A stretch of DNA of 64,000 bases from positions 62,001-126,000 of the forward strand of contig JAFAYL010000047.1 in the NCBI GenBank assembly GCA_019240405.1. The letters are read 5' to 3'. The notes beneath the pieces were generated by a model, which saw only the letters and a list, made by a program, of their open reading frames with translations, did not search any database and was not told the origin of the DNA. Shown here piece by piece: positions 4,011 through 58,062 of the stretch. Both the position numbers and the translations under genes were made by a program. Numbering within the stretch: the first letter of the stretch is position 1; every line of letters begins with the position of its first letter. Origin of the DNA: Acidobacteriaceae bacterium (lineage in GTDB: Bacteria > Acidobacteriota > Terriglobia > Bryobacterales > Bryobacteraceae).

Positions 4011-6695
4011 TTAAGAGGCGGGGCTGCTCCCGCCAGCCATCAACTGGCGCAGAACATACGGCAGGATACCGCCGTTCCGATAATATTCAAATTCCTGTAG
4101 CGTATCCAAGCGAGCCCGTACCTCAAATCTGACGGTCTTTCCGTTGGGTTTCTCGGCAATTACCTCAACCTGCTTCCCTGAGGAGAGCGCGTTAGGTACG
4201 CCGCGCAACTCATATGTCTCCTCGCCTGTGAGGCCGAGCGATTCGCGGTTTGCTCCCTCCAGAAATTGCAATGGAAGAACGCCCATTTGCACCAGATTTG
4301 ATCGATGAATTCTTTCGAAGCTCTCTGCGATTACCGCGCGTATCCCCAGCAGCAGAGTTCCCTTCGCCGCCCAATCGCGTGATGAGCCTGAGCCATACTC
4401 TTTGCCGGCAATCACCAGCAGCGGCACGCTTTCTGCTTTGTATTTCATCGCTGCGTCGTAAATAAACATCTTTTCGCCATCCGGCATATGCCGCGTCCAA
4501 CTGCCTTCCACGCCGGGCACCATTTGGTTTTTCAATCGAATGTTGCCGAATGTTCCCCGGACCATGACTTCATGATTCCCGCGGCGGGCTCCATAGCTGT
4601 TAAAATCAGCCGCCTTCACGCCAAGGCTAACGAGGTATTTGCCGGCCGGGCTGTCTACCGGAATGGAGCCGGCCGGAGAGATATGGTCAGTAGTAACTGA
4701 ATCGCCGAGGATCGCCAAAACCCGCAGTCCCGTCATATCTCGCACCGAAGTTAGAGGATCCGCTAGGGATTCAAAATACGGAGGCTGCTTGATATACGTT
4801 GAATCTCCACTCCATTCATAAATATTTCCTGTGGGAACTCTGATCGAATTCCAGTTTGCATCTCCCTCGAACACCTCCGAGTATTCTTTCCGGAAAAACT
4901 CCGTTCTGGCAGAGTGCTTCACAGCGTCTTCGACCTCTACAGGGCTGGGCCAAATATCTCGCAAATAGACTTTCTTGCCATGTGTGTCTTTGCCGAGCGG
5001 CTCTTTCGTTATATCGATGTCGACGCGGCCGGCAATCGCATATGCGACAACAAGCGGCGGTGAAGCTAAATAATTAGAGCGCACCAGCGGGTTCACTCGT
5101 CCCTCAAAATTCCGGTTACCGCTTAGAACAGCAGCGACGTTCAGCTTGTTCTCTAATACAGCAGTCGCTACGTTTTCTGGTAAAGGTCCACTGTTCCCGA
5201 TGCAGGTCGTGCATCCGTAACCGACTAAATGAAAGTTCAATTTCTCTAGGTACGGCATGAGGCCCGAATCGGTTAGATAGTCAAGCACCACCTTTGACCC
5301 CGGTGCGAGTGAAGTCTTCACCCACGGCTTAGCTGTCAATCCCTTCTCGACCGCTTTCTTTGCTAGTAAACCGGCTGCAATCATGACCGACGGATTCGAG
5401 GTATTCGTGCAGCTCGTTATCGCGGCAATCACAACAGCGCCATCGTGAATCTTTTCTTTGTGGCCGTTGACTGATACGCTCGCAGACTTTGGCGAGTGTT
5501 CAAGGCTTGCGAGAAAATTCTCTTTTACGCTCGGCAGGTCAATTCGATCTTGAGGTCTGCGTGGCCCTGCCATCGATGGAACAACTTTGGACAAATCCAA
5601 AGAGAGTGTATCCGAATAAACAGCCTCGTCAGAATCTGGCGTCAGAAAGAGGCTTTGCTCTTTGGCGTATGCTTCTATCAAATTTATCTGCTCAGCGCTG
5701 CGATTGGTGAGCTTCAGATAATCCAGAGTTACTCCATCAATCGGGAAAAAACCGATCGTCGCTCCGTACTCGGGAGCCATGTTACTGATGGTTGCGCGAT
5801 CGGCTAATGACAGCGCACTTACTCCCGAGCCATAAAACTCGACAAATTTGCCGACCACGCCCTTCTTTCGCAACATCTGAGTAACGGTGAGTACTAGGTC
5901 AGTGGCTGTAGCTCCCTCCGCGAGTTTGCCGGTGATCTTAAAGCCGACAACTTGGGGCAATAGCATCGAAATTGGTTGTCCGAGCATACAAGCCTCTGCC
6001 TCAATGCCGCCAACGCCCCAACCGACTACGCCCAAGCCATTGACCATCGTCGTGTGCGAGTCAGTTCCCATCAAAGTGTCTGGATAGGCCTGCAACGTGC
6101 CATTCACGGTCCCGCTAAACACAACACTCGCGAGATATTCCAGATTTACCTGGTGAACGATGCCCGTATCCGGCGGGACTACGCGAAAGTTCTGAAACGC
6201 CTTTTGCCCCCACCGCAAAAATGCATAGCGTTCTTGATTGCGCGAGAATTCGAGCAGTGCATTCTGTTGGAATGCGGCTGCGGAACCAAATGCATCAACT
6301 TGAACCGAATGGTCGATCACAAGATCCGCGGGAATGAGAGGATTCGCGAGTTGAGGATTCGCGCCCAGTCTCTTTAGCGCATCGCGCATGGAAGCCAAGT
6401 CGACAACGCAGGGAACACCTGTAAAATCCTGCAAGAGAATGCGGGCGGGCCGAAAATTGATTTCGTGCGGAGTCGTTTTTGCGTCCCACTTTGCAACCAT
6501 TTCTATATCGGTGCGCTTTACTGTCCGCTCATCCTCGAAACGAAGAAGATTTTCAAGCAAGACTTTAATCGCGTAGGGAATACGCGCAAGCTTTCCTAGG
6601 CCCGCTTTCTCCAACGAATCTAATCGAAAAATCTGATAATCAGTTTCGTTAACTCGTAGCGCCGCAGCAGCGCCATAGCTGTTCTTACTAGCCAT
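4011..6695 (-). CDS. acnA: Aconitate hydratase AcnA
   Basis: This 894-residue enzyme isomerises citrate to isocitrate in the TCA cycle using a 4Fe-4S cluster. Length and order match the AcnA/IRP1 branch. The cluster ligands are visible as Cys429 in ITSCTNTSN and the CTTC pair Cys495/Cys498 in [10 protein letters not shown]. Further marks are [12 protein letters not shown] near residue 210 and the C-terminal swivel-domain motif [15 protein letters not shown]. The ATG at 6695 fits the family N-terminus. argS lies upstream on the same strand, about 50 bp away. Confidence 0.97.
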
Positions 6696-6747
6696 TCTGA
6701 CTACAGTTTAGTGCAGCACCGAAGGTGAACAGGTATGCAGAGAGTAC

Positions 6748-8721
6748 TTACATGTATTCCGGCTGCTCGATTCCGAGTACGTCCATTGTCCGAAGCAGTT
6801 GTTGATGAACATATTGGGTAAGCCACAGCAGAGTGTTGCGGCGTTCCATATCTTCTTCGCCGAGAACCGGGGAGTGATGGTAAAAGTTATTGAAAGCCTG
6901 CGCAAGTTGGAATCCATACTTTGCGACATGCGCCGGCTCACCTGAGCCGATTGCTCGGTCAACAATGCTGTCGGCCTTTGACGCCAGCAACAACAATTGC
7001 CAGAGCTCCTCGGAATCGAAGCAGCGGGCCAGCGACTCGGGACTCAAGGATCGCTCGAAATCCGGGAGAACGCCCGAGCGCTCCTTGAATTTCCGGAGGA
7101 TGTTCTGGGCTCGCACGGCGGCATACTGGACGTACGGTCCTGTTTCACCTTCAAAGCCCAGCGCCTCGTGAAGGTCGAAAGCGATGAGCGAATTCCGCGT
7201 GAACTTTAACATGAAATAGCGCAATGCCCCGGCTGCGATCTGCGTAGCCACTTGGCGGCGTTGTTCGACGGGAGCATCGGGATGTCTCGACTCGACTTCC
7301 TCTAGTGCGGTCTCGATGAGTTTATCGATCAGGTCGTCTGCCTTAACGCCCAGACCTTTTCGACCGGAAACCTCGACGTAAGGGCGGCGCTTATCTTCAT
7401 CCGACAGCTCAATTCCTAGCTCCGCACACGTGCGGGGAGACAACATGACCATTTCGTACGAAAAATGAACCGATGCATCGGCTTCGCGCGTGAATCCGAG
7501 AGCGCGCAACCCGGCGACCACGACGTCTTGCAAATAAGCTTGGCGTGAATCGATGACGTTAAATACCTGGGCCGCTGCGCCAAAGGAGGGAGCCGTCGCG
7601 TAAGGCTTGTCATCGGTTACCCAAACCTGGTGGCCGTCCGGATAAGAGAAACCCGGCCGATAATAGAAGTCTTTGCCCAACAAGCCGAACTTCCAGAGCT
7701 GATAGGCAATATCTTTTCCGACGTAGGTAACCGTACCGTTCGAACGAACGATAACCTTGCTGTCCTCGCCCTCAGCCTCGCCTCTTTCTGATTCCGCGTC
7801 TGCCGTCCTGAATGCCGCGGCTGGCATAACCCAGCAACCCTTATTTTTACCTTGAGTTTCAAAATAAATTGCATTCCGCTGCTTTAGAAGTTCGAGTGCT
7901 GTTGCCCAGAACTTCAGGTGAAGGATTTCACTTTCCCTTGGAAGTACATCATATTTAATGCCTAATCTGCACATCGTTTTGAGATGTGCGCTCACGATAG
8001 CGTCTGAAACTATATGGCCGAGCACGACAAGGTCACTTTCGCCTGATTCAATTGCGTGCAGCGTCGCATCACGCCAGGCGAGCGATTCCGGATGCTCTTT
8101 GTAGTGCGCGGAAATTCGTGCATAGAGATCCCAACAGTGATAGTCAAAACGCGGACTAGCGCTTTCAATTAACGCCTTGACATCGTCAATACTTTTGTGT
8201 CCCAGATAATGGAATCCGGCAACAACATCGGCAACCTGCACGCCGGTATTGTCTATGTAGTTCTGAACCTCGACTCTATAACTCCGCTTGCGCAACATCC
8301 GGACAAATGTGTCGCCGAGAACTGCGTTTCGAAGGTGCCCGATATGAGCTGCCTTGTTGGGGTTGATGTTTGTGTGCTCGACGATAATTTTGTCGAGCGA
8401 CTGCTCGGGTTTCGTTTCGACGCCGCGAAGGATTGACCAGGCGTAAGCACCCCTGTCCAGCCGCAAGTTGATGTATCCGTTGCCGGCAATCTCAAAACAG
8501 GCGACGCCTTCGGGTTTCGGAAGGCCGGCAATCAGTTCTTCCGCGATTTGCTTCGGTGGACGTTTCAACTCACGGGCTAGCTGAAATGCAACTGGAATAG
8601 CCAACTCGCCAAACGAGCTTTGTTTCGGTTGTTCGAGCGTGACTTCACGGTTCAGGTTGAGTTTTGAAGCCAGTTGCTGTTTGAAGGCTCGTGAGACGGC
8701 AGCCTCAATCTGCGTGAACAT
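6748..8721 (-). CDS. argS: Arginyl-tRNA synthetase
   Basis: This is a 657-residue class I synthetase that charges tRNA-Arg. It has the N-terminal Add-1 domain that recognises the tRNA elbow (about residues 1-100), the HIGH signature at residues 126-129 in KAAHIGHLRN, a KMSKS-region variant around SGRKGLGVKADD, and the C-terminal anticodon-binding helical domain, including MLKFTRNSLIAFD and the terminal DVLGIEQPEYM. The final Met is the usual ArgS ending, so the gene is complete. The length is larger than the typical 550-590 residues because of insertions in the catalytic domain. Confidence 0.97.
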   Translation of the reverse strand: MFTQIEAAVSRAFKQQLASKLNLNREVTLEQPKQSSFGELAIPVAFQLARELKRPPKQIAEELIAGLPKPEGVACFEIAGNGYINLRLDRGAYAWSILRGVETKPEQSLDKIIVEHTNINPNKAAHIGHLRNAVLGDTFVRMLRKRSYRVEVQNYIDNTGVQVADVVAGFHYLGHKSIDDVKALIESASPRFDYHCWDLYARISAHYKEHPESLAWRDATLHAIESGESDLVVLGHIVSDAIVSAHLKTMCRLGIKYDVLPRESEILHLKFWATALELLKQRNAIYFETQGKNKGCWVMPAAAFRTADAESERGEAEGEDSKVIVRSNGTVTYVGKDIAYQLWKFGLLGKDFYYRPGFSYPDGHQVWVTDDKPYATAPSFGAAAQVFNVIDSRQAYLQDVVVAGLRALGFTREADASVHFSYEMVMLSPRTCAELGIELSDEDKRRPYVEVSGRKGLGVKADDLIDKLIETALEEVESRHPDAPVEQRRQVATQIAAGALRYFMLKFTRNSLIAFDLHEALGFEGETGPYVQYAAVRAQNILRKFKERSGVLPDFERSLSPESLARCFDSEELWQLLLLASKADSIVDRAIGSGEPAHVAKYGFQLAQAFNNFYHHSPVLGEEDMERRNTLLWLTQYVHQQLLRTMDVLGIEQPEYM

Positions 8722-8789
8722 TAGTTTCCAGTATGCCCAATCAAGTCTCGATTTCGGTGCCGCGGCATGCTGGTTGAGATAATGAGGGC

Positions 8790-9149
8790 GTGCCGAAGGT
8801 AACCTTCTTGCCGGAAAACAAGACGGTCGAATTCGAAGACGGCAAGCTTCCCTATGCTGACCACGGTAAGCCGGGATCAGTTTTGGATGTGGCGCTAAAT
8901 TTTGGGATCCACCTCGAGCATGCTTGTGGAGGAAGTTGCGCCTGTACGACGTGCCACGTCATTGTCGCTGAAGGCGAAAAGAACCTGTCGGAAGCCGACG
9001 ATGATGAGTTAGACCGGCTCGATATGGCTGCAGGCTTAACGCTTCGCTCGCGTCTGGGTTGTCAGGCCGTCGTTAACGGCGACGTAAAGGTCGAAATACC
9101 CGCTTGGAATCGCAACTATATCAGCGAGGGCGGGACGTCAATGTTATAA
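8790..9149 (+). CDS. 2Fe-2S ferredoxin (ISC-type, adrenodoxin family)
   Basis: This 119-residue ferredoxin has the cluster ligand pattern CX5CX2C...C at Cys46, Cys52, Cys55 and Cys91, with the ACTTCH segment typical of bacterial Fdx/adrenodoxin electron carriers used in iron-sulfur cluster assembly and some oxygenases. The N-terminus KVTFLPENKTVEF is the usual beta-grasp start. The start lies 68 bp from the divergent argS start. No other isc genes are adjacent. It could also serve as redox partner for the cytochrome P450 at 50714, but nothing here links the two. Confidence 0.93.
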   Translation: MPKVTFLPENKTVEFEDGKLPYADHGKPGSVLDVALNFGIHLEHACGGSCACTTCHVIVAEGEKNLSEADDDELDRLDMAAGLTLRSRLGCQAVVNGDVKVEIPAWNRNYISEGGTSML

Positions 9150-9153
9150 ACCG

Positions 9154-9165
9154 TTCCGGCCGGAA
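9154..9165. repeat. 12-bp perfect palindrome between convergent genes
   Basis: TTCCGGCCGGAA reads identically on both strands in the 33-bp gap between the ferredoxin stop and the convergent lipoprotein stop. It is flanked by GTTAT and ATAAC. It could contribute to a bidirectional terminator, but there is no T-tract and no loop, so the role is unproven. Confidence 0.3.
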
Positions 9166-9182
9166 ATAACAAACTGATTGCG

Positions 9183-10103
9183 TTATTGAGCCTTGACGTG
9201 CGAAATGGACGCCAAGAGTTTGTTGGTGAGCTCGGCATCGAAGTCTCCGCGAACGTGAATTATCGTTTTATCCTGATCGACGTGGATAGCGTCATAAAGG
9301 CGCAAAAGATCTAGTTGATCGTCTCTTGTGGTCAGACGCGCCAACCCGATTCCGCCGCGGAGCGCATCGCGAACACGCTGCGCGCCCGGATCGGAAATAC
9401 AGGTAAGATCAGCTCGTAGGTGGAGACCACTATCGACGCCGACCCCGATTGCTGTCCGGCTCACGTATCCGACAATGTTCGATAGCGCGGAACTTATCTC
9501 TGAGCGCATCGGAATGTTAGCGAATGGAAGCCCGTCTCGGCTAACGATCCAGATCTGATCTGTTCCCGGAATCGTTTGCAACTGCTGCTCCAATTCCGCC
9601 GGAATCCCCGTTTCGTTCTTCTGGTGCGTTACGATCAATTCTTCAATTGCACTTGTCGCACCTGCTAACACGAATCCTTTCCGTACGAACACGAGCGAAT
9701 TGTTCTCATCACCAAACAATCTATAGCTCTTGAACTCTCGCGGGTGGGCCCCGAGCGAAGCGAGCTTTGTCTCCCACTGAGTCTGGTTGAATTGACCACG
9801 CCCCATGGCAAACCATCGAATGCCATTCCACCCGCCTAAGACTGATGAAAAATCGCGCTTAAGATCAAAGCCGGTGCGTTCTGAAAAAGCATCAATTTGC
9901 GGAAGATCTAAGGCGTCCTTATGGTCTTGGTACAGGGGTGACTCGAGGAGCTTATCGATTTTCACACCCATCAAGACCTTCGTATTTTGAGGTATGAACG
10001 GCTTGAATTCAGAATCGACAACGATGCCCTTTGTCCCGAAATGCGTACAGCCCGTCGACGCGAGCAGAGCCATTAAGATCGCGCAGGGGAATAACAATCG
10101 CAT
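9183..10103 (-). CDS. Predicted lipoprotein of an ABC-exporter operon
   Basis: The ATG at 10103 starts a 306-residue protein with a bacterial lipoprotein signal: basic start, hydrophobic core, and lipobox ASTGC with Cys19 as lipidation site. This start shares one base with the stop of the upstream permease gene (TGATG), arguing for translational coupling. Longer in-frame starts within the permease would bury the signal peptide and are rejected. The mature part is a mixed alpha/beta protein I do not recognise, similar in style to DUF3352-like membrane-anchored proteins. The context suggests a partner of the ABC system encoded just upstream. Confidence 0.85.
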   Translation of the reverse strand: MRLLFPCAILMALLASTGCTHFGTKGIVVDSEFKPFIPQNTKVLMGVKIDKLLESPLYQDHKDALDLPQIDAFSERTGFDLKRDFSSVLGGWNGIRWFAMGRGQFNQTQWETKLASLGAHPREFKSYRLFGDENNSLVFVRKGFVLAGATSAIEELIVTHQKNETGIPAELEQQLQTIPGTDQIWIVSRDGLPFANIPMRSEISSALSNIVGYVSRTAIGVGVDSGLHLRADLTCISDPGAQRVRDALRGGIGLARLTTRDDQLDLLRLYDAIHVDQDKTIIHVRGDFDAELTNKLLASISHVKAQ

Positions 10104-49737: not shown

Positions 49738-49844
49738 GGCAGGGACTTCACTCAGTATAGATCCGTATAGAAACGGGTCGAGGTCAAGCCTCCCGGCCGG
49801 CAAATTGAGTCACCAGCAAACCCGCTTTTTGAACTTGCGCGCAA

Positions 49845-50579
49845 TCAATCTCCGTAGCAATACCAATTCCTTTGCTCTGTATCTTGGCCAGCTTGGAGTT
49901 TCCGCAGATGCTCCATCACGTCGCGATCGGCTTTCCCGATGCTCACAAGCTCTTGGTAATCGCGAATGGCTCGCTCTCTCGCTTGAGCCGCGCCGTCCAG
50001 GAAATCCTCTGGCTTCAATTCAGCGTCTGCAATCACCGGATCATCCGGCGGCGATTGCGATAGGGACCACCATGTTTCGTAAGCTTCCGCCCGCATTTTG
50101 GTCAAGCGGGGATCTCGGAGGGCTTTCCACTTCCTAAACTCCAGAATGTCAATCACAGTTTTGAAATACGGAATCCACCCGGTCGCAATAGTCTGGCAAC
50201 CTGTCGGAAGGAGTCGAACCAGTGCTTCTGCGCCGTCTGGATCGCCCTGGTGAACCCTGGCAATTAGCTGAAGTAGATCGTGTTGATAGTTTTCCTGTCC
50301 TTGAATTTCGTTATAGCGATAATGCAGTTCCCAAGTGGCAACACGAATGCAACGCTCGCCACAAGCGCTATTTGGCTTACTATCCTCCAGCTTCTCCGCC
50401 TCGCGGTCTGCTTGCATGAGAAGGTTTGCCCACTCGACCGAGTCTTTCGAATTCGCTGCTCGATCCAGGAGAGCTTTAAGTTTATCGACCTGAGCTTGTG
50501 AGGAAGAATCCGCGCCGCAAAGAATTTGAGCCGTGAACAGAATCTGTACTAAAAGGCATTTCGTTTTCATTTGGCTCAA
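49845..50579 (-). CDS. Secreted hypothetical protein with conserved cysteines
   Basis: This 244-residue protein has a weak signal peptide (MSQMKTKCLLVQILFTAQIL, cleavage near CGADSSSQA; a lipoprotein site at Cys21 is possible). The rest is mostly helical and rich in charged and aromatic residues (ACGERC near residue 75; NWYCYGD at the end). No known domain is recognised. It lies 107 bp upstream of ccmE on the same strand, so a role in the operon is possible but not supported by sequence. Confidence 0.7.
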   Translation of the reverse strand: MSQMKTKCLLVQILFTAQILCGADSSSQAQVDKLKALLDRAANSKDSVEWANLLMQADREAEKLEDSKPNSACGERCIRVATWELHYRYNEIQGQENYQHDLLQLIARVHQGDPDGAEALVRLLPTGCQTIATGWIPYFKTVIDILEFRKWKALRDPRLTKMRAEAYETWWSLSQSPPDDPVIADAELKPEDFLDGAAQARERAIRDYQELVSIGKADRDVMEHLRKLQAGQDTEQRNWYCYGD

Positions 50580-50713
50580 CCTCCAAGGATCACGTCGGGC
50601 GGGTTTGCAGCGACCTCCAAACCGGTGGTTTTAGCCTACTTCATTCGCGCAGCTGTGTTATGCAGTTATAGATGGTGAGCACGCAACCACATCGGCGAAA
50701 TTCCTGTTAGCTC

Positions 50714-51988
50714 ATGAAAACTGACCAAAATACACAAAATGATACCGATGCAGGTCTGAGTCTATTCCAGCTCTTGGATCCCGAAGTCCTTGCTAATCCG
50801 TACCCACTCTTTCGGCGCATCCGCTCGACTGATCCTGTCCACTGGGACATGTTCCTACACGCCTGGGTCATAACGCGTTACGACGATGTGGTCCGGGTGT
50901 TCAAAACGTTTTCTGCGGATCGAACTCCAAGTCCACGCCAACTGAGCGAAATGGGGCTCGAGCACATGTCCCCTATAGCCGCCCTGATGGTCAAACAAAT
51001 GCTGTTCTTGGACCCCCCAACGCATACGCGCATCCGGAGTCTGGCTGCTTGCGTGTTTACTCCGCGCCGCGTATCCGTATTACGTGACCGGATTGAGAAC
51101 ATTGCCAGGAGATTGCTGCTCCGAGTAGCTGAAACAGGAGAAATGGACGTGATGGCGGATTTCGCGAGTCCGCTACCTGCGATTATCACAGCGACATTGC
51201 TTGGCGTTCCTGAGGAGGATTACGAGCAGCTAAAAGACTGGTCTGCTGATTTTGCGGAGATGCTGGGGAATTTCCAGCACAATCCCGATCGCACACCTCG
51301 GATCCTCAAGACTGTGGAAGAAATGACGACCTATTTTCGCGATCGAATCCGTGAACAGCATCAGCACCCGCGAGAAGGGCTGCTTCACTCCTTGTTAACC
51401 GCCGAGGTAAATGGCGACAAGCTGAGCGAGGAAGAGGTTATAGCGAATTCGATCATCACCATGATCGGAGGCCAGGAGACCACAACGAATCTGATCGGAA
51501 ACGGTCTCCTCGCGTTGCTTCGCAATCCAGCCGAGCTAGACCGATTACGCCGTGACGGTTCGCTGCTGGGATCGGCTGTCGAGGAACTGCTGCGTTACGA
51601 TTGCCCAAGTCAACATACTGCCAGAATTGCGCCCGCCGATATGGAGATGGGAGGAAAGCGCATTTCCGGCGGTCAGGCGGTGATTGCTGTGATGGCTGCT
51701 GCGAATCGCGATCCGGAGCGTTTCCCTGACCCAGATCGGCTCGATCTGTCGCGCGCTGACAACCGGCATTTAGCGTTTGGCTGGGCGAGCCACTTCTGTT
51801 TCGGCGCGCCACTTGCCCGATTAGAAGGCCAGATTAGTTTCTCGCTGCTAACGCAGCTTCCCAATCTGCACTTAACATCGGAGTCCTTGCAATGGCGCAA
51901 CAATCTCGGGCTGCGCGGTCTGGTGGCATTGCCTGTCCGTTTCGATCCTTCTCCGTCGCTTCGTTTCGACGAATCGAATCAGCGGTAG
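50714..51988 (+). CDS. Cytochrome P450
   Basis: This 424-residue soluble bacterial P450 has the I-helix oxygen-activation motif IGGQETTT at residues 251-258, the ExxR pair Glu291/Arg294 and the heme loop FGWASHFCFGAPLAR at 355-369 with Cys362 as axial ligand (Ala358 replaces a usual Gly). It needs an external ferredoxin and reductase. The stop is 18 bp from the stop of the convergent NRPS gene. By context it may hydroxylate the amino acid loaded on that carrier protein, as P450s do in several aminoacyl-carrier systems. That link is inference. Confidence 0.93.
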   Translation: MKTDQNTQNDTDAGLSLFQLLDPEVLANPYPLFRRIRSTDPVHWDMFLHAWVITRYDDVVRVFKTFSADRTPSPRQLSEMGLEHMSPIAALMVKQMLFLDPPTHTRIRSLAACVFTPRRVSVLRDRIENIARRLLLRVAETGEMDVMADFASPLPAIITATLLGVPEEDYEQLKDWSADFAEMLGNFQHNPDRTPRILKTVEEMTTYFRDRIREQHQHPREGLLHSLLTAEVNGDKLSEEEVIANSIITMIGGQETTTNLIGNGLLALLRNPAELDRLRRDGSLLGSAVEELLRYDCPSQHTARIAPADMEMGGKRISGGQAVIAVMAAANRDPERFPDPDRLDLSRADNRHLAFGWASHFCFGAPLARLEGQISFSLLTQLPNLHLTSESLQWRNNLGLRGLVALPVRFDPSPSLRFDESNQR

Positions 51989-52006
51989 ACTTTTTTACTT
52001 TCCACT

Positions 52007-54703
52007 TTATGCCGAACTCGAATCAGCGCTCGCCAATTTCGCGCCGCGGCAGCTTTGCAGACATTTCCGTAGCTTTTCCGCGACAACCGTAACAGCTGCC
52101 GACGGCCCTGGTGATGAATACCCTAACCGTGGAGCGAGGAAAATGCGCTGGTCACCGGGGATAACGTGTACCTCTACGCCTCCTTCGGCAACCTCACTCC
52201 AGCCCAGGCGGCGATCATGAAACGAGCGGAAGGCATAATCACCACCCCAAAACAAAACAACTCGGCCAGAGTAAGGTTTCGGAACATACGCGTCGTTAGC
52301 GCGTCTGTTCGCCTCTTCCAATTCCGCCGACCCATGAAGAATCGGGCCCGTGCCACTCATTTTTGTCCGTGCCCACCGTAGCCTGATGTTTGGTGCCAGT
52401 CGATACCACAGCAAGTAACTCAGGTACGATAATTTCTGCTTTCGCGACCGCCACAGGAACTCGCCCAAATAGCTATCGATGAACCAAAATAACGTGCGCC
52501 GGATAGGTCTTATTGGAAAATCGGCCTGTTCACCAGGGAAAAAGCTATCCATCAGGACGAGCAATGGAACGTCCTCTCCCTGGGCACGCAGCTGTTGCGC
52601 CATTTCAAAGGCCACAATGCCGCCGAAACAATAACCGCCAAGATGGTATGGCCCTTTAGGCTGAACTCTTCGAATCTCAGCAATATAGTTCGCGGCCAAA
52701 TCTTCGACGCAGAAATCAAAATTGCCGTCGCCTATGACCCCCGAGGGCTGCAGGCCATAAAAAGGCTGCTCCGGCCCTAACACGGCAGCCAACTTGTGAT
52801 GTATCTGGAGATCCCATCCATGAGCATGCACGCAGAAGAAAGCGCGTCGATTCCCTCCCGCTTGGATCTTAACCAGCGATGAGGATCCCGCCAGTTTTTC
52901 GTCGCGTTCGAAGAGCGCAATCTGGTGTGAGAGTGCTGCAACAGTAGGCGATTCGAAAATCGTGCGCAGTGGCAGATCAACACTGAAGGTTTTCCGGATA
53001 CGTGCAATAACCTGGGCAGCCAACAACGAGTGCCCGCCGAGCCGGAAAAAATTGTCGTTTAATCTCAGTTCGCGCCCACCTAGCAGACTGGAAAGAATGG
53101 ATGCCACCTGAACCTGAATTCCGTTCTCCAGTTCCCCAGCTCCGCCAGCCTGCTCCAACGAATTGAACGCATCAGGAGCCGGTAGCGCCCCGAAGTCAAC
53201 CTTACCGTTCGCCCTGATCGGCAACTCCCGGCGGCGCACAAAGACGGCCGGAGTCATGTAGGAAGGGACGTGCGCGGCCAAATGAGATCGAAGGTCATCA
53301 GCAGTAGCATCCGTTCTGAGCACAACATATGCGGCAAGTTGTTTGTACTCCTCACTTCCTACGGCTGTTACCGCTGCGGCTCCGACCGCGGGATGGCTTC
53401 GAAGCGCGGCAACAATTTCACTCGGCTCGATGCGAAACCCACGAATCTTGATCTGATCATCCAAACGTCCGTGAAAGTAAAATTCTCCGCTTGGAAGCTT
53501 TCGTCCGAGATCGCCTGTGAGATAAGCCCTAACGTCCCCCAAAGCTGAATTCTGGACAAAGCGCTCGTGGGTTAGATCGGGGCGACCGATGTACCCAGCG
53601 CCAACACCGGGACCGGCGATACAAATTTGACCGCAATCGCCATCAAGGACCGGCTGCAAACTGGAGTCCAGAATGTAGACGTCTGTTCCCGGTATTGGCC
53701 TCCCTATGGTTGGAATCGCGAATCCATTACGTTCACTTGGCACAATTCCCGATGTCGCAAGTACCGTGCATTCAGTCGGCCCATAATTGTTCACAACGTG
53801 AAATGGGAGTCCGGATGGCGGGAAGCTTCGCAGCGTGTCTGCACCAGTCAGCAGAAATCTAAGCCGTGTGTTCTGCGGCCACTCGAGTGAGATTAGCTGC
53901 TCGGCAATAGGAGTTACTGCGAAACAAAGCGTGATCCCCTGTGCAACCAAATAGTCGCGCAAACGCTCCGGTACGAGCACGCTGGAGCGTTCTGGAATAT
54001 ACAGGCTCGCGCCTGCAGCTAGGATGGGCCAAGTCTCTAGAACCGCAGCGTCGAAGGTGAGGGCAGCGAATTGCGTACCTTTGTCCTGTGGTGTTACATC
54101 GAAGGCCTCACCGTGCCATTTGACCAAATATCTTAAGTTCGCCTGCGTAACAGCTACACCTTTCGGCTGTCCCGTAGATCCCGAAGTGTAGATAACGTAC
54201 GCGAGATCCTCGGGTGCAGTCCTCCAAACACTCTCACTCACGTTTGGAACGGGTTCGGGCTGCGAACTACCGACAAGTTCGTCAATAAAACAGAGCTGCA
54301 CATCTCCACCCAAACCATGGAGGCTGGTGCGGTTTGTTGCCAACACCCGAACATCCGCCTCGGACAGAACACGATTTAGGCGTTCGAGGGGTTCCGCCGC
54401 GCTTACCGGCAAATAGGCACAACCAGTGCGCCAGACGGCAAGCGCGGCAATGATCATTTGAACGGAATCGTCGGTGGAAATCGCTACAATTCCACGCCTT
54501 CCTCCGAGAGTTGAACTAAGCGACGTTGCCAAGTGCGAAGCGCGTGCAACCAAATCACCGAAAGTGATCCGCTGGCGTTCAGACACAATTGCCGTAGCCG
54601 TTGGCGCAGATCCGGCAATTCGCCAGATGTGCTTTGCAACAGAGACGAACTCAGTGTTGCTGGATGCTTCTGACATGTGGTCCACGTTCTGAGTCTCCTT
54701 CAC
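52007..54703 (-). CDS. Single-module NRPS: adenylation-carrier-thioesterase (A-T-TE)
   Basis: This 898-residue protein has an adenylation domain at about 20-505 (YVIYTSGSTGQPKG at 170-182, NNYGPTE at 305-311, YLTGDLG, catalytic Lys501), a carrier domain at about 525-600 with phosphopantetheine Ser559 in LGGHSLLA, and a thioesterase at about 615-885. Asp218 takes the place that binds the amino group, so an alpha-amino acid is the expected substrate. The thioesterase nucleophile elbow GGYCFGG has Cys692 for Ser, and the usual PGDH reads PGDQ at 849-852. It starts with GTG at 54703, overlapping the PPTase stop; a GTG at 54685 has a better-spaced AAGGAG. No condensation domain is present. Confidence 0.93.
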   Translation of the reverse strand: MKETQNVDHMSEASSNTEFVSVAKHIWRIAGSAPTATAIVSERQRITFGDLVARASHLATSLSSTLGGRRGIVAISTDDSVQMIIAALAVWRTGCAYLPVSAAEPLERLNRVLSEADVRVLATNRTSLHGLGGDVQLCFIDELVGSSQPEPVPNVSESVWRTAPEDLAYVIYTSGSTGQPKGVAVTQANLRYLVKWHGEAFDVTPQDKGTQFAALTFDAAVLETWPILAAGASLYIPERSSVLVPERLRDYLVAQGITLCFAVTPIAEQLISLEWPQNTRLRFLLTGADTLRSFPPSGLPFHVVNNYGPTECTVLATSGIVPSERNGFAIPTIGRPIPGTDVYILDSSLQPVLDGDCGQICIAGPGVGAGYIGRPDLTHERFVQNSALGDVRAYLTGDLGRKLPSGEFYFHGRLDDQIKIRGFRIEPSEIVAALRSHPAVGAAAVTAVGSEEYKQLAAYVVLRTDATADDLRSHLAAHVPSYMTPAVFVRRRELPIRANGKVDFGALPAPDAFNSLEQAGGAGELENGIQVQVASILSSLLGGRELRLNDNFFRLGGHSLLAAQVIARIRKTFSVDLPLRTIFESPTVAALSHQIALFERDEKLAGSSSLVKIQAGGNRRAFFCVHAHGWDLQIHHKLAAVLGPEQPFYGLQPSGVIGDGNFDFCVEDLAANYIAEIRRVQPKGPYHLGGYCFGGIVAFEMAQQLRAQGEDVPLLVLMDSFFPGEQADFPIRPIRRTLFWFIDSYLGEFLWRSRKQKLSYLSYLLWYRLAPNIRLRWARTKMSGTGPILHGSAELEEANRRANDAYVPKPYSGRVVLFWGGDYAFRSFHDRRLGWSEVAEGGVEVHVIPGDQRIFLAPRLGYSSPGPSAAVTVVAEKLRKCLQSCRGAKLASADSSSA

Positions 54704-55503
54704 GCGACCTTGCAGCCGATAAAGCCAAAATCTGGATCTAAGTCAGGCATATTCGCGGATGGCAAGCTGGCCAAGAGTTGGTCAACCGTGATGTACCGAA
54801 ACATCCGGACCGCGCGCTTGGACCGAAGAGCTAGCGCGCCAACGTACCCCGGTGCGGGATGCAAATCACAAAGGGACCAGAGCCGGGCCTCCGACGCACT
54901 CCCATTCACGTCCAGAATGGCTGGAGGTTCGGTGGGAAGAAGCGTTACTTGAACGCTGTCCAGTGAAGCCCTAAGACCCTGCCCGGTTGCTTTGAGATAA
55001 GCTTCCTTTCGAGTCCAGCACGCGAAGAACGAAGCCAGCCGAGTCGGCCACGTCAAACTTTCTAGCTTTAAGAGCTCCTCAGGACAGAAAAACGACTCCG
55101 CGATGCTATGTATGTCGGGGTGTTCGCGGATCTGCTCGACGTCAATACCAAGCTCGCAGCCCTCGGTGAAGGCATACAAGGCCAGATTCCCTGAATAGGA
55201 GCTATTAAAGTGAAGAAACCGCGGTTCCGGGTAGAGGCGTGGTTTTGCTGCGTGCTCGTGAGAAAGGCGAATATCGCACGCTCTTGTGCCTGCGCCTAGG
55301 TACCGGGAAAGGAGAGTGCGTAATATTCCCCTTCGCAGGATAAATCTCGTTCGAGCACACTCCGATTGCAAGCCGCTGAGCCGAAACTTCTCATCCGAAG
55401 AGAGACTGAGAGAGAGTCGCCTAATGATTTCGGCGCCCGCGTCGATGACTACGGACCACACATGCACTTCAGAACAGGCACTTACACGATCTAGATTCCG
55501 CAT
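54700..55503 (-). CDS. 4'-phosphopantetheinyl transferase, Sfp type
   Basis: This 267-residue enzyme attaches the phosphopantetheine arm to carrier proteins. Motifs are HFNSSYSGNLALYAF (the usual SHS of Sfp reads SYS), the Mg-binding GIDVEQIRE near residue 120 and FFACWTRKEAYLKATGQGL near 160. It is coupled to the NRPS gene by a GTGA overlap, so it is almost certainly the dedicated activator of that carrier domain. The ATG at 55503 is preceded by a long noncoding region. Confidence 0.94.
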   Translation of the reverse strand: MRNLDRVSACSEVHVWSVVIDAGAEIIRRLSLSLSSDEKFRLSGLQSECARTRFILRRGILRTLLSRYLGAGTRACDIRLSHEHAAKPRLYPEPRFLHFNSSYSGNLALYAFTEGCELGIDVEQIREHPDIHSIAESFFCPEELLKLESLTWPTRLASFFACWTRKEAYLKATGQGLRASLDSVQVTLLPTEPPAILDVNGSASEARLWSLCDLHPAPGYVGALALRSKRAVRMFRYITVDQLLASLPSANMPDLDPDFGFIGCKVA

Positions 55504-55825
55504 CCTGATTAGGGTTCTCAGTTAGATGGATTTTTCAAAAAAAATTCTAGTATGAATATCGGGCATTGTCAGTGCTATGTATGTAGTAAAAGTGCAGTTT
55601 TCTTTAGCGTTTGGTACCAGAACTAGATGTTGTACTAGAAGTACTCTGGCGTTGCTCAAACGCTAGACCGCATGACATCACGCAGAGGCGCACATCACAT
55701 AAATCATGACGGCGCCGACGTCCAAGGCAAATTTGATTTCCACTTGGGGGTATTCGATTCTGCGCGATCTGAGCCTTAAACCGGCACTCCGGTACCGCCA
55801 AGTACACTTGTAGACACCGGAGCAC
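55504..55825. other. Noncoding region between PPTase and M20 peptidase genes
   Basis: This 322-bp divergent intergenic region is visibly richer in A and T near the PPTase start (an A-run of eight near 55540) and has no convincing gene on either strand. It contains a nested inverted repeat at 55605-55665, annotated separately. Promoters for both flanking genes are expected here, but I could not fix them. Confidence 0.6.
55605..55665. repeat. Nested inverted repeat (possible regulatory hairpin)
   Basis: Outer arms TAGCGTTTG (55605-55613) and CAAACGCTA (55657-55665) are perfect complements. Inner arms CCAGA (55617-55621) and TCTGG (55645-55649) are nested inside. The whole could fold as a long interrupted hairpin on either strand, in the only large gap of the biosynthetic locus. 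Function is unknown. Confidence 0.5.
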
Positions 55826-57136
55826 TTGTTGGCAACTCAACCCAAGACGTTTTCCGCAAATACCGTAGATGCCTCGGGCCGGCGGCGCATAGCTGAATTA
55901 GCAGAGCAGACCGCGCTTTCAGATGCGCAACGGTGGTTCACTCGCGAGCGCGCCTGGATTAATGAACAGCATCTAGCGCTGTGCCGCATTCCCGCTCCTA
56001 CCTTTTTCGAACAGCAGCGCGCGGAATGGTTCCGGTCACAACTGGAAACGCTCGGATGGAGTGCTCGCATCGATCGTGCGGGAAATGTGCTGGCGAAATT
56101 CGGTGCGCGTTCGAGTTTCGAAACCCGCGAGGCTCCCCTAATAATTTCCGCGCACCTGGACACCGTGCTTGCTCCGCGCCGGCCAGGGGAAATCTATTAC
56201 GGGCCGGATGGGCGGCTATTTGGTCCGGGTGTTTCCGACAACGGCACGGGGCTAGCGGCATTGTTTGCAATCGCGAGAATGCTGAAGGAGAGCCCCGAGT
56301 TGTATGAATTGGCAGCTTCGCTTCTCCTCATCGCGAACGTGGGCGAAGAAGGCGAGGGAAACCTGAGCGGAATGCGATATCTTTGCCGGCAAAGCTCATT
56401 TCCAAACTCCACTACGTTCATCGTTTTGGATGGGCCCTCGATCGAGCACATCACGGTGCAAGCTCTGGCGAGCCGGCGCTTCGAGATTACTTTGATTGGA
56501 CCAGGCGGACATAGCTGGAATGATTACGGCACGCCGAACCCGGTTCACGCTTTGACTCAAGCGGTGAGCGAATTCTTGCAATCCGCCGATTCGCGCATGA
56601 ATGGCGATCTGAAAGGACGCTGCTCTTACAACTTCGGAGTAATCGAGGGTGGGAGTAGCGTGAACTCAATTCCCGCGGAGGCACGCGCCAAACTCGATTT
56701 GCGCTCGGAAGAAGCGAACATGTTCGATGAGTTCTCGAGTTTGCTGAACTCCGCCGTGGAACACGCTCTCGAGCGCGAGAATAAAGGCCCGCGCACCGCC
56801 CGCTTAAGCGCAAAGATCAGGAGTCTGGGGGCACGTCCGGGAGGCACGCTTCCGGGCGGATCTCATGTCCTAAAAACAGTTCAAGCAGTTGATGAGCACC
56901 TGAAGATCCATTCTCGGATTGACTGTGCTTCCACCGACGCAAACATTCCTCTTTCGTTGGGTCTTCCGGCAATCTCCATCGGCACCGGCGGGCAGGGTGG
57001 GGGTGCACACACAACGGAGGAGTGGTATCAGCCCGAGGGCCGCGATCTGGGGCTGCAGCGCATTCTTCTGATCCTGGCTGCCCTTGCTGCTGACAAGCGC
57101 GGTGATCCGCGCTCCACACTGTCTGCGGAACTGTGA
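55826..57136 (+). CDS. M20 family metallopeptidase
   Basis: This 436-residue protein matches the M20/tripeptidase-like family. The metal ligands are seen in ISAHLDTVL, in GPGVSDNGTGLAAL and in NVGEEGEGNLSG (catalytic Glu-Glu); the dimerisation domain runs from about 240 to 350; the last ligand lies in GGGAHTTEEWYQPEG. No signal peptide is seen. It appears to start with TTG at 55826 (or TTG at 55829), which is uncertain. It is coupled by a GTGA overlap to an EamA transporter gene, suggesting release and export or uptake of a small peptide or amide. Confidence 0.88.
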   Translation: MLATQPKTFSANTVDASGRRRIAELAEQTALSDAQRWFTRERAWINEQHLALCRIPAPTFFEQQRAEWFRSQLETLGWSARIDRAGNVLAKFGARSSFETREAPLIISAHLDTVLAPRRPGEIYYGPDGRLFGPGVSDNGTGLAALFAIARMLKESPELYELAASLLLIANVGEEGEGNLSGMRYLCRQSSFPNSTTFIVLDGPSIEHITVQALASRRFEITLIGPGGHSWNDYGTPNPVHALTQAVSEFLQSADSRMNGDLKGRCSYNFGVIEGGSSVNSIPAEARAKLDLRSEEANMFDEFSSLLNSAVEHALERENKGPRTARLSAKIRSLGARPGGTLPGGSHVLKTVQAVDEHLKIHSRIDCASTDANIPLSLGLPAISIGTGGQGGGAHTTEEWYQPEGRDLGLQRILLILAALAADKRGDPRSTLSAEL

Positions 57137-58062
57137 GCAGCACACTTACAGAGATCCCCGCGCAGACGCCGGAAGCCCGCTCAAAAGCCGATGCAGCCTT
57201 GGTGCTGGTTGCACTGATCTGGGGGGCGACATTCGTCGTCGTCAAGCGCGCGCTGCTCGAAATCTCGACCATGTATTTTTTGGCCGTTAGATTCGCCTTC
57301 GCTAGCGTTTGCGTGGTGCTCATTTTCAGTCCGCGTTATGCCGGAATGCGTGTAGCGAGCGCATGGCGAGGTCTCGGTTGCGGCGCCATTGCGGGTGTCT
57401 TCTTGTGGCTGGGATATGTGCTTCAGAGCTATGGGTTGAAGTACACGAGCGCCGGCAATTCTGGCTTCTTAACCGGGCTCTACATCGTTCTCGTTCCGCT
57501 GATCAGCGCCTGCGTATATCGAAAATGGCCTCAAAGTATCGAGCTGCTTGGGATAGTTATTGCCGGCGTGGGGATTGTGTTCCTGACGCTCCCTACTCTT
57601 GATCGCAATTTCCAGATAAACCGGGGCGACCTGCTGACGATTGGATGTGCGATCGTCTTCGCATTTCATCTCCTCGTCCTCGGCTACTACTCGCAACGCG
57701 AGCGATTCGAAGTTGTAGCTCTAGGTCAGATTGTCTGCGCGGCCATCCTCTCCGCGATTTCGCTCATCGTGGAGCGACCGCGCGCGATATGGAGCGCCAG
57801 CGTTATTTTCGCGATCGTGTTAACAGGACTATTCGCTACAGCTCTGGCCTTCGCCTTACAGACTTGGGCGCAACAGTACACGACAGCGACCAGGACGGCC
57901 CTGATCTTCGCTCTTGAGCCGGTTTTCGCGTATGTTACCGCGGTAATTGCCGGCGGTGAGAGGCTAACACCTGGAGCGGTTTGCGGCGGCGCGCTGATTT
58001 TGGTTGGAATTCTTACGGTGGAATTGAAACCGGCACGCCTAGCCGGACATCGGAAGTCTTAG
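57133..58062 (+). CDS. EamA/DMT family transporter
   Basis: This 309-residue protein has about ten hydrophobic segments in two EamA repeats: VLVALIWGATFVVVKRAL and YTSAGNSGFLTGLYIVLVPL in the first, QTWAQQYTTATRTALIFALE in the second. Members export or import amino acids, nucleosides and other metabolites. It starts with GTG at 57133 inside the M20 stop, so the two are translated together. It may move a product or substrate of the neighbouring locus; that is inference. Confidence 0.93.
   Translation: MSSTLTEIPAQTPEARSKADAALVLVALIWGATFVVVKRALLEISTMYFLAVRFAFASVCVVLIFSPRYAGMRVASAWRGLGCGAIAGVFLWLGYVLQSYGLKYTSAGNSGFLTGLYIVLVPLISACVYRKWPQSIELLGIVIAGVGIVFLTLPTLDRNFQINRGDLLTIGCAIVFAFHLLVLGYYSQRERFEVVALGQIVCAAILSAISLIVERPRAIWSASVIFAIVLTGLFATALAFALQTWAQQYTTATRTALIFALEPVFAYVTAVIAGGERLTPGAVCGGALILVGILTVELKPARLAGHRKS

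Follow-up and report, generated by a model that had tools for sequence, protein, structure and literature searches.

A compact P450, A-T-TE NRPS and phosphopantetheinyl transferase locus from an Acidobacteriaceae bacterium as a probable minimal cassette for oxidation of a carrier-tethered amino acid

What could an NRPS release that keeps a carrier (T) and a thioesterase (TE) yet has no condensation (C) domain, when a cytochrome P450 gene faces it and a phosphopantetheinyl transferase (PPTase) gene overlaps it? This question is raised by a locus in the window, the stretch of 64,000 nucleotides of Acidobacteriaceae DNA analysed here. The P450 gene (50714..51988, + strand) encodes 424 aa and matched the Pfam p450 model (1e-25); its intact motifs and the linkage of its orthologs make it a predicted hydroxylase of carrier-bound leucine. 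The NRPS gene (52007..54703, − strand) has a GTG start and encodes 898 aa. Pfam placed AMP-binding at residues 30-371, AMP-binding_C at 432-501, PP-binding at 533-593 (7.4e-15) and Thioesterase at 623-726 (7.1e-20), and gave no match to a Condensation domain in this protein. The T domain (residues 533-593; 52925..53107, − strand) carries a GGHS motif with the Ser. The third gene (54700..55503, − strand) encodes an Sfp/HetI-like PPTase of 267 aa (ACPS, 3.7e-19; HetI model, 1.6e-43, which is under the cut-off of that model; Sfp structure 1qr0, 4.5e-11). The sequence-only reading had described these three genes, the missing C domain beside a retained carrier and TE, and a P450 facing the NRPS with 18 bp between the stops. 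All three ORFs were intact, the Pfam domains agreed, and the stops at 51988 and 52007 do converge at that distance. The PPTase gene lies upstream of the NRPS gene and its stop shares 4 bp (GTGA) with the NRPS start, so that the translational coupling proposed earlier is plausible.

To which of these genes does conservation extend? A P450 search yielded matches at E ≤ 1e-60 in 30 of 150 relatives (39 places, 30 of them taken as loci). An A-T gene lay within 1.5 kb of the P450 in 10 of the 11 loci with 54-100% P450 identity (window included), and a contig end cuts off the A-T neighbourhood of the eleventh. P450s of 32-44% identity had an A-T neighbour in 0 of 19 loci. When named genomes were scanned with the P450 by alignment, 182 stretches were confirmed, and the best 80 of these 182 (61-77% identity) were kept as loci; scanning with the single A-T-TE protein as query gave no match in the named genomes. 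The concern of the sequence-only reading that the genes might not co-occur in relatives was allayed, since an adenylation (A) domain gene without C lay directly upstream of the P450, on the same strand, in 74 of the best 80 loci. The exceptions were L114, L116 (with an intervening C gene), L150, L163, L166 and L171. Conservation of the P450, A-T-TE and PPTase trio as such was not upheld: among the best 80 loci, a PPTase was present in 26 and a C domain was found within 6 kb in 66.

By their record titles, the 80 loci come from Acidobacteria, Chloroflexi (Thermogemmatispora, Dictyobacter, Ktedonosporobacter), Verrucomicrobia, Rokubacteria, an Isosphaeraceae MAG (Planctomycetes), Alphaproteobacteria (Sphingomonas, Stakelama, Roseomonas, Hephaestia) and Actinobacteria MAGs, where MAG labels can err. 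A close P450 ortholog was present in 13 of 396 genomes drawn evenly from the phylum (own genome included). All 12 loci newly taken from this draw had A upstream and C downstream, although four of them have P450s identical to those of named loci. The locus sets overlap (L105 = G024, L148 = G006, L159 = G012, L172 = G062, L179 = G079) and their counts include near-identical entries such as L157/L160. P450 and A-T, with mean identities of 66% and 50%, respectively, had correlated distances (r 0.70, n=82; 0 of 2000 permutations), a co-variation that is partly due to shared descent, and the carrier Ser was kept in all 86 A-T sequences, window included. These comparisons indicate that the conserved unit is A-T plus P450, that the exact trio is not conserved and that the window carries a compact variant. 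Most relatives would hand the residue to a C-containing NRPS; in a few, a GNAT-like gene or a TE encoded separately is present instead. Given the domain E-values and the conserved A-T/P450 linkage, a chance origin of the three-gene set can be regarded as excluded.

Several loci depart from the common arrangement. In 12 of the best 80 loci the P450 is in one frame with C-A-T-TE or A-T-TE domains; two of these apparent fusions were confirmed by Pfam (L107:7899-13346 and L129:5780-9796), the remainder being L109, L112, L113, L118, L120, L122, L130, L135, L140 and L162. In L148, L153, L159, L172, L173 and L179, A-T and P450 are followed by a GNAT-like protein of ~380 aa, mostly behind a glycosyltransferase, and aminoacyl decoration of a polysaccharide is possible there. 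L107:2615-6078 and similar Acidobacteriota loci encode a bacterial sugar transferase and an acyl/AMP ligase of ~530 aa immediately ahead of A-T, which would fit a lipopeptide or glycoconjugate context.

Which amino acid would be loaded? The A domain (approximately residues 30-503; 53195..54616, − strand) has the code DALFLGNVLK, the positions of which we take to follow GrsA numbering. Its pocket is aliphatic and Leu-like and keeps the amine-binding Asp (Asp218), whereas aromatic-keto-acid A domains of A-T-TE synthetases lack this residue. Among 86 A-T sequences (window and duplicates counted, at least four duplicated, two incomplete), the code was exactly DAWFLGNVVK in 71, DAWFLGNVLK in five and DALFLGNVLK in three, including the window. 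Second-module A domains in the same clusters have widely varying codes, which ties the Leu pocket to the pair with the P450. In a smaller set of sequences, the association has exceptions on both sides: the code of a more distant pair, G008 (P450 identity 54%), is DVMEQGNVVK and not Leu-like, and two A-T genes without a P450 nonetheless have a Leu-like code (L044, DALFVGQVVK; L046, the Leu code). In the parts of the literature consulted, a survey that covers 224 Leu domains names DAWFLGNVVK first when it gives the most frequent codes for Leu, Ile and Val (PMC12283262), and this code is the Leu pocket of laxaphycin-type synthetases, the products of which contain 3-hydroxyleucine (PMC7524897). 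Judged by its code, the A domain most likely uses leucine. The same evidence bears on the idea that the protein is a furanone or quinone synthetase acting on aromatic keto acids, next to an unrelated P450. The A-T-TE order is identical in the excerpts on such fungal enzymes (PMC9047271, PMC12105029), but Asp218, the Leu-like pocket and the near relatives, which are A-T didomains within amino-acid NRPS clusters, make this already disfavoured explanation hardly credible.

The ExxR motif and the haem Cys were present in 93 of 93 P450s, window included, and the I-helix Thr in 92. The closest solved P450 was P450BioI (PDB 3ejb; 273 bits, profile 354), an enzyme that acts on fatty acyl-ACP, cleaving the chain; a carrier-bound substrate is what we predict for the window P450 too. 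No solved amino-acid-PCP P450 was recognised among the best 60 PDB matches, nor was NikQ, NovI, OxyD or P450sky, and on this comparison the window P450 does not appear especially close to them. Matches in 54 plasmid records were all below 60% P450 identity. The nearest, on Nostoc pNLP2 (45%), has as neighbours a PKS and a carrier-bearing fatty acyl-AMP ligase, whereas two more plasmid P450s that were inspected (39-42%) had no adjoining AMP ligase. These relationships suggest a P450 ancestry on carrier-bound substrates. The earlier proposal that the P450 acts on an amino acid tethered to A-T gains support from the linkage to A (74 of the best 80 of 182 stretches), from the contrast between 10 of 11 and 0 of 19 loci, and from the correlation of distances (r 0.70).

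Taken together, our findings make it probable that the locus is a minimal cassette oxidising a carrier-tethered amino acid. In the proposed sequence of steps, the PPTase would convert T to holo-T and the A domain would activate L-leucine and load it onto T. The P450 would then bind leucyl-S-T and hydroxylate it, most likely at C3, and the residue would pass to Cys692 of the fused TE, to be released as 3-hydroxyleucine or transferred onto an acceptor. That the P450 acts on the loaded T is likely. Position C3 is favoured because of the PlyR and Qui15 precedents and is, by this analogy, reasonably likely. Hydrolytic release as the free amino acid is somewhat doubtful. Several observations speak against this reading: a TE without the His, the code of G008, Leu-like A-T genes without a P450, six of the best 80 loci without an A gene directly upstream, the two plasmid P450s without an adjoining AMP ligase, and no MbtH protein found in the genome although Qui18 needs one.

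The TE region (residues 601-898; 52010..52903, − strand) has Cys692 (GGYCFGG) instead of Ser as nucleophile and Asp719 at the common position. At the place where the His is expected it has Gln852, followed by approximately ten extra residues. The loss of this His makes release as the free amino acid a tentative proposal. The nucleophile was Ser in 26 of 57 TE segments, Cys in 30 and unreadable in one. All 26 Ser-TEs had the His, as did 18 of the 26 Cys-TEs readable at that position; the other eight had Gln (two: window and L146), Pro (three, two of them near-identical), Asn (two) or Thr (one, L121, a doubtful case with a His one place further on). Cys together with Asn for His was seen in the TE of a C-T-TE protein without an A domain that follows the P450 in L165 (9291-11906) and L174. 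Of 39 conserved columns the window TE retained 92%, against a median of 85%, deviating at residues 621, 645 and 852, and the loss of the His therefore reads as a specific change. Decay of the TE was considered and is disfavoured by this test (0.92 against a median of 0.85). Three-frame translation revealed no frameshift behind the lost His, which may, coming from one genome, be a sequencing or assembly error.

If the change is real, the TE might be non-hydrolytic, keeping the hydroxyleucyl thioester and transferring it to an acceptor (a glycan, an amine or another carrier). A Cys nucleophile combined with Gln for His in an otherwise conserved domain would fit such a role. So would the neighbourhoods of relatives: in eight of the best 80 of 182 stretches a GNAT-like gene lies no more than 6 kb from the P450 (immediately after it in six of these), often beside a glycosyltransferase, and polysaccharide-type genes occur in 26 of the 80 and beside the closest relatives of the window, L104 and L105. 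However, no acceptor enzyme or polysaccharide gene was matched in the window, and the GNAT call is weak (of four proteins, one gave a Pfam match at cut-off and a second one below it). We consider this explanation unlikely. Alternatively, the new hydroxyl could be used by the TE to form a β-lactone or an oligo-ester of 3-hydroxyleucine, comparable to the lactone of ObiF or the trilactone of EntF. The Cys-TEs of ObiF and SulM close small β-substituted rings (PMC6668435, PMC11298585, excerpts), but in the same accounts they have the His and an Asp on a later strand, and the activity of ObiF falls without either. The window TE, which has Gln in place of the His and its Asp where it commonly lies, is a poor candidate, and lactone or oligo-ester formation is quite improbable.

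How did this compact form arise? The window P450 and A-T are sister to those of L105 (strain KBS 96) and L104 with a support of 1.0. Those loci comprise A-T, P450, a discrete C and A-T-TE beside Wzz, Wzy, sugar transferase and glycosyltransferase genes. In contrast, the window TE groups with the TEs of G008 and G012 (support 0.82). With its A-T and TE placed apart in this way, the fused NRPS is a chimera from which the second module has gone, and the locus in the window is a chimeric compaction. Other loci also had no C within 6 kb: L146, L161 and L177 have A-T, P450 and a discrete TE (the TE ORF of L161 is 137 aa), L168 has A-T, P450 and PPTase, and in L162 the contig ends. In L147, A-T-TE, P450 and PPTase occur in a run that is preceded by a C-A-TE protein.

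The chimeric TE, the lost module and His, and an inversion of the P450 relative to the other loci could also mean that a former two-module pathway is in decay here and that the locus is what remains of it. In line with this, the P450 kept 95% of 181 conserved columns and A-T 91% of 150, both below the median (ranks from the bottom, 15 of 93 and 19 of 84). Yet the three ORFs are intact, the carrier, P450 and PPTase motifs are all kept, column retention of the TE is above the median, and the Cys/Gln combination is shared by L146, another locus without C. Decay is therefore an improbable explanation, and a minimal oxidising cassette is the reading that we retain.

Could partners be encoded elsewhere in the genome? 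The genome assembly has 4.45 Mb, with a completeness of 95.8% and a contamination of 3.8%. It yielded neither a Condensation domain match by the Pfam model nor an MbtH protein, and one additional, weak Thioesterase match (E 1.1e-5). A second ACPS-family match sits in a 129-aa frame, which leaves the PPTase of the locus as the only one of Sfp size found in the genome. The cassette is thus self-contained, unless a partner sits in the missing few per cent. The trio lies in a block between ccmE and an M20 gene (49804..55825), an apparent insertion that is missing from the same junction in three relatives. Among eight M20 regions compared, ccmE and M20 were 0.1-1.1 kb apart in L210, L213 and L214, and no P450, NRPS or PPTase was matched between them. 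The junction is not universal, as no ccmE was seen beside M20 in the stretches examined from L209, L211, L215 and L216. L212 has 3.2 kb of other genes there (6286-9503; glyoxalase-like and esterase-like by eye), and the junction is possibly a variable site. M20 (55826-57136) was present in 37 of 40 genomes, the source genome among them, and most of these M20 genes had no cassette; M20 and EamA (55826-58062) were accordingly dropped as cassette parts. Between ccmE and the P450 lies an orphan ORF (49845-50579, 244 aa, GC 0.516, no Pfam match), which matched one of the 40 genomes, its own, and none of the 39 others. Base composition gave no sign of foreign origin (GC 0.547-0.551 for the trio against 0.545-0.577 for six flanking genes), and promoter and terminator patterns at the locus were fewer than the shuffled mean.

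To the sequence-only reading the gene set had looked undescribed. This can hold for the cassette family within the literature searched, much literature lying outside that search: no description was found, and the text on P450s and adenylation in PMC6497799, PMC9723581, PMC7298704 and PMC8692599 does not mention the cassette. It does not hold for the chemistry, as P450 hydroxylation of tethered amino acids is already known (NikQ, Qui18/Qui15, PlyR). What looks new is a widespread leucine cassette with interchangeable off-loading, together with its fused, His-less compact form. A bolder and rather unlikely proposition joins two claims: that a leucyl-carrier and P450 pair has been plugged into pathways across phyla with swappable off-loading parts (a C-containing NRPS, a GNAT-like transferase in polysaccharide operons, a discrete TE, or a fused Cys-TE that lacks the His), and that the Cys-TE of the window and L146 is a non-hydrolytic carrier or transferase that makes conjugates. 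If this were true, the product of these two loci would be hydroxyleucyl conjugates rather than a peptide. One enzyme pair across several phyla allows a cheap and sharp prediction, leucine in and hydroxyleucine out, which bears on pathways in soil bacteria, most of them uncultured. With its three proteins, the locus in the window is the smallest complete test object and poses the question of what a Cys-TE without the His does.

Among known systems, NikP1/NikQ of nikkomycin and NovH/NovI of the aminocoumarins pair an A-carrier protein with a P450 that hydroxylates the tethered amino acid. They differ from the window in their substrate (His or Tyr), their host (Streptomyces) and their TE, which is discrete or absent. 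Of the TEs compared, that of AB3403 (PDB 4zxh) has Asp at the common position, as in the window, and aligns with a His where the window has Gln; the Cys-TEs of ObiF1 and SulM share the nucleophile but keep the His (PMC6668435, PMC11298585, excerpts). In the echinomycin pathway, as far as described in the excerpts of PMC3578932, the P450 Qui15 hydroxylates only Trp bound to Qui18, an A-T didomain that needs the MbtH protein Qui5, although MbtH is not always needed in such systems. A TE (Qui14) is nearby. The window shares the A-T and P450 pair, whereas tryptophan, the MbtH partner and a separate TE, the release step of which is not studied in those excerpts, set echinomycin apart. For polyoxypeptin, the relevant passages of PMC3943440 describe a free-standing A, a PCP, the P450 PlyR (37% to NikQ) and the TE PlyS for 3-hydroxyleucine, with steps that were proposed from a knock-out and not reconstituted. 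Leucine on a carrier, hydroxylation by a P450 and proposed release by a TE are common to both systems, but in polyoxypeptin these functions reside on separate proteins within a large NRPS-PKS cluster.
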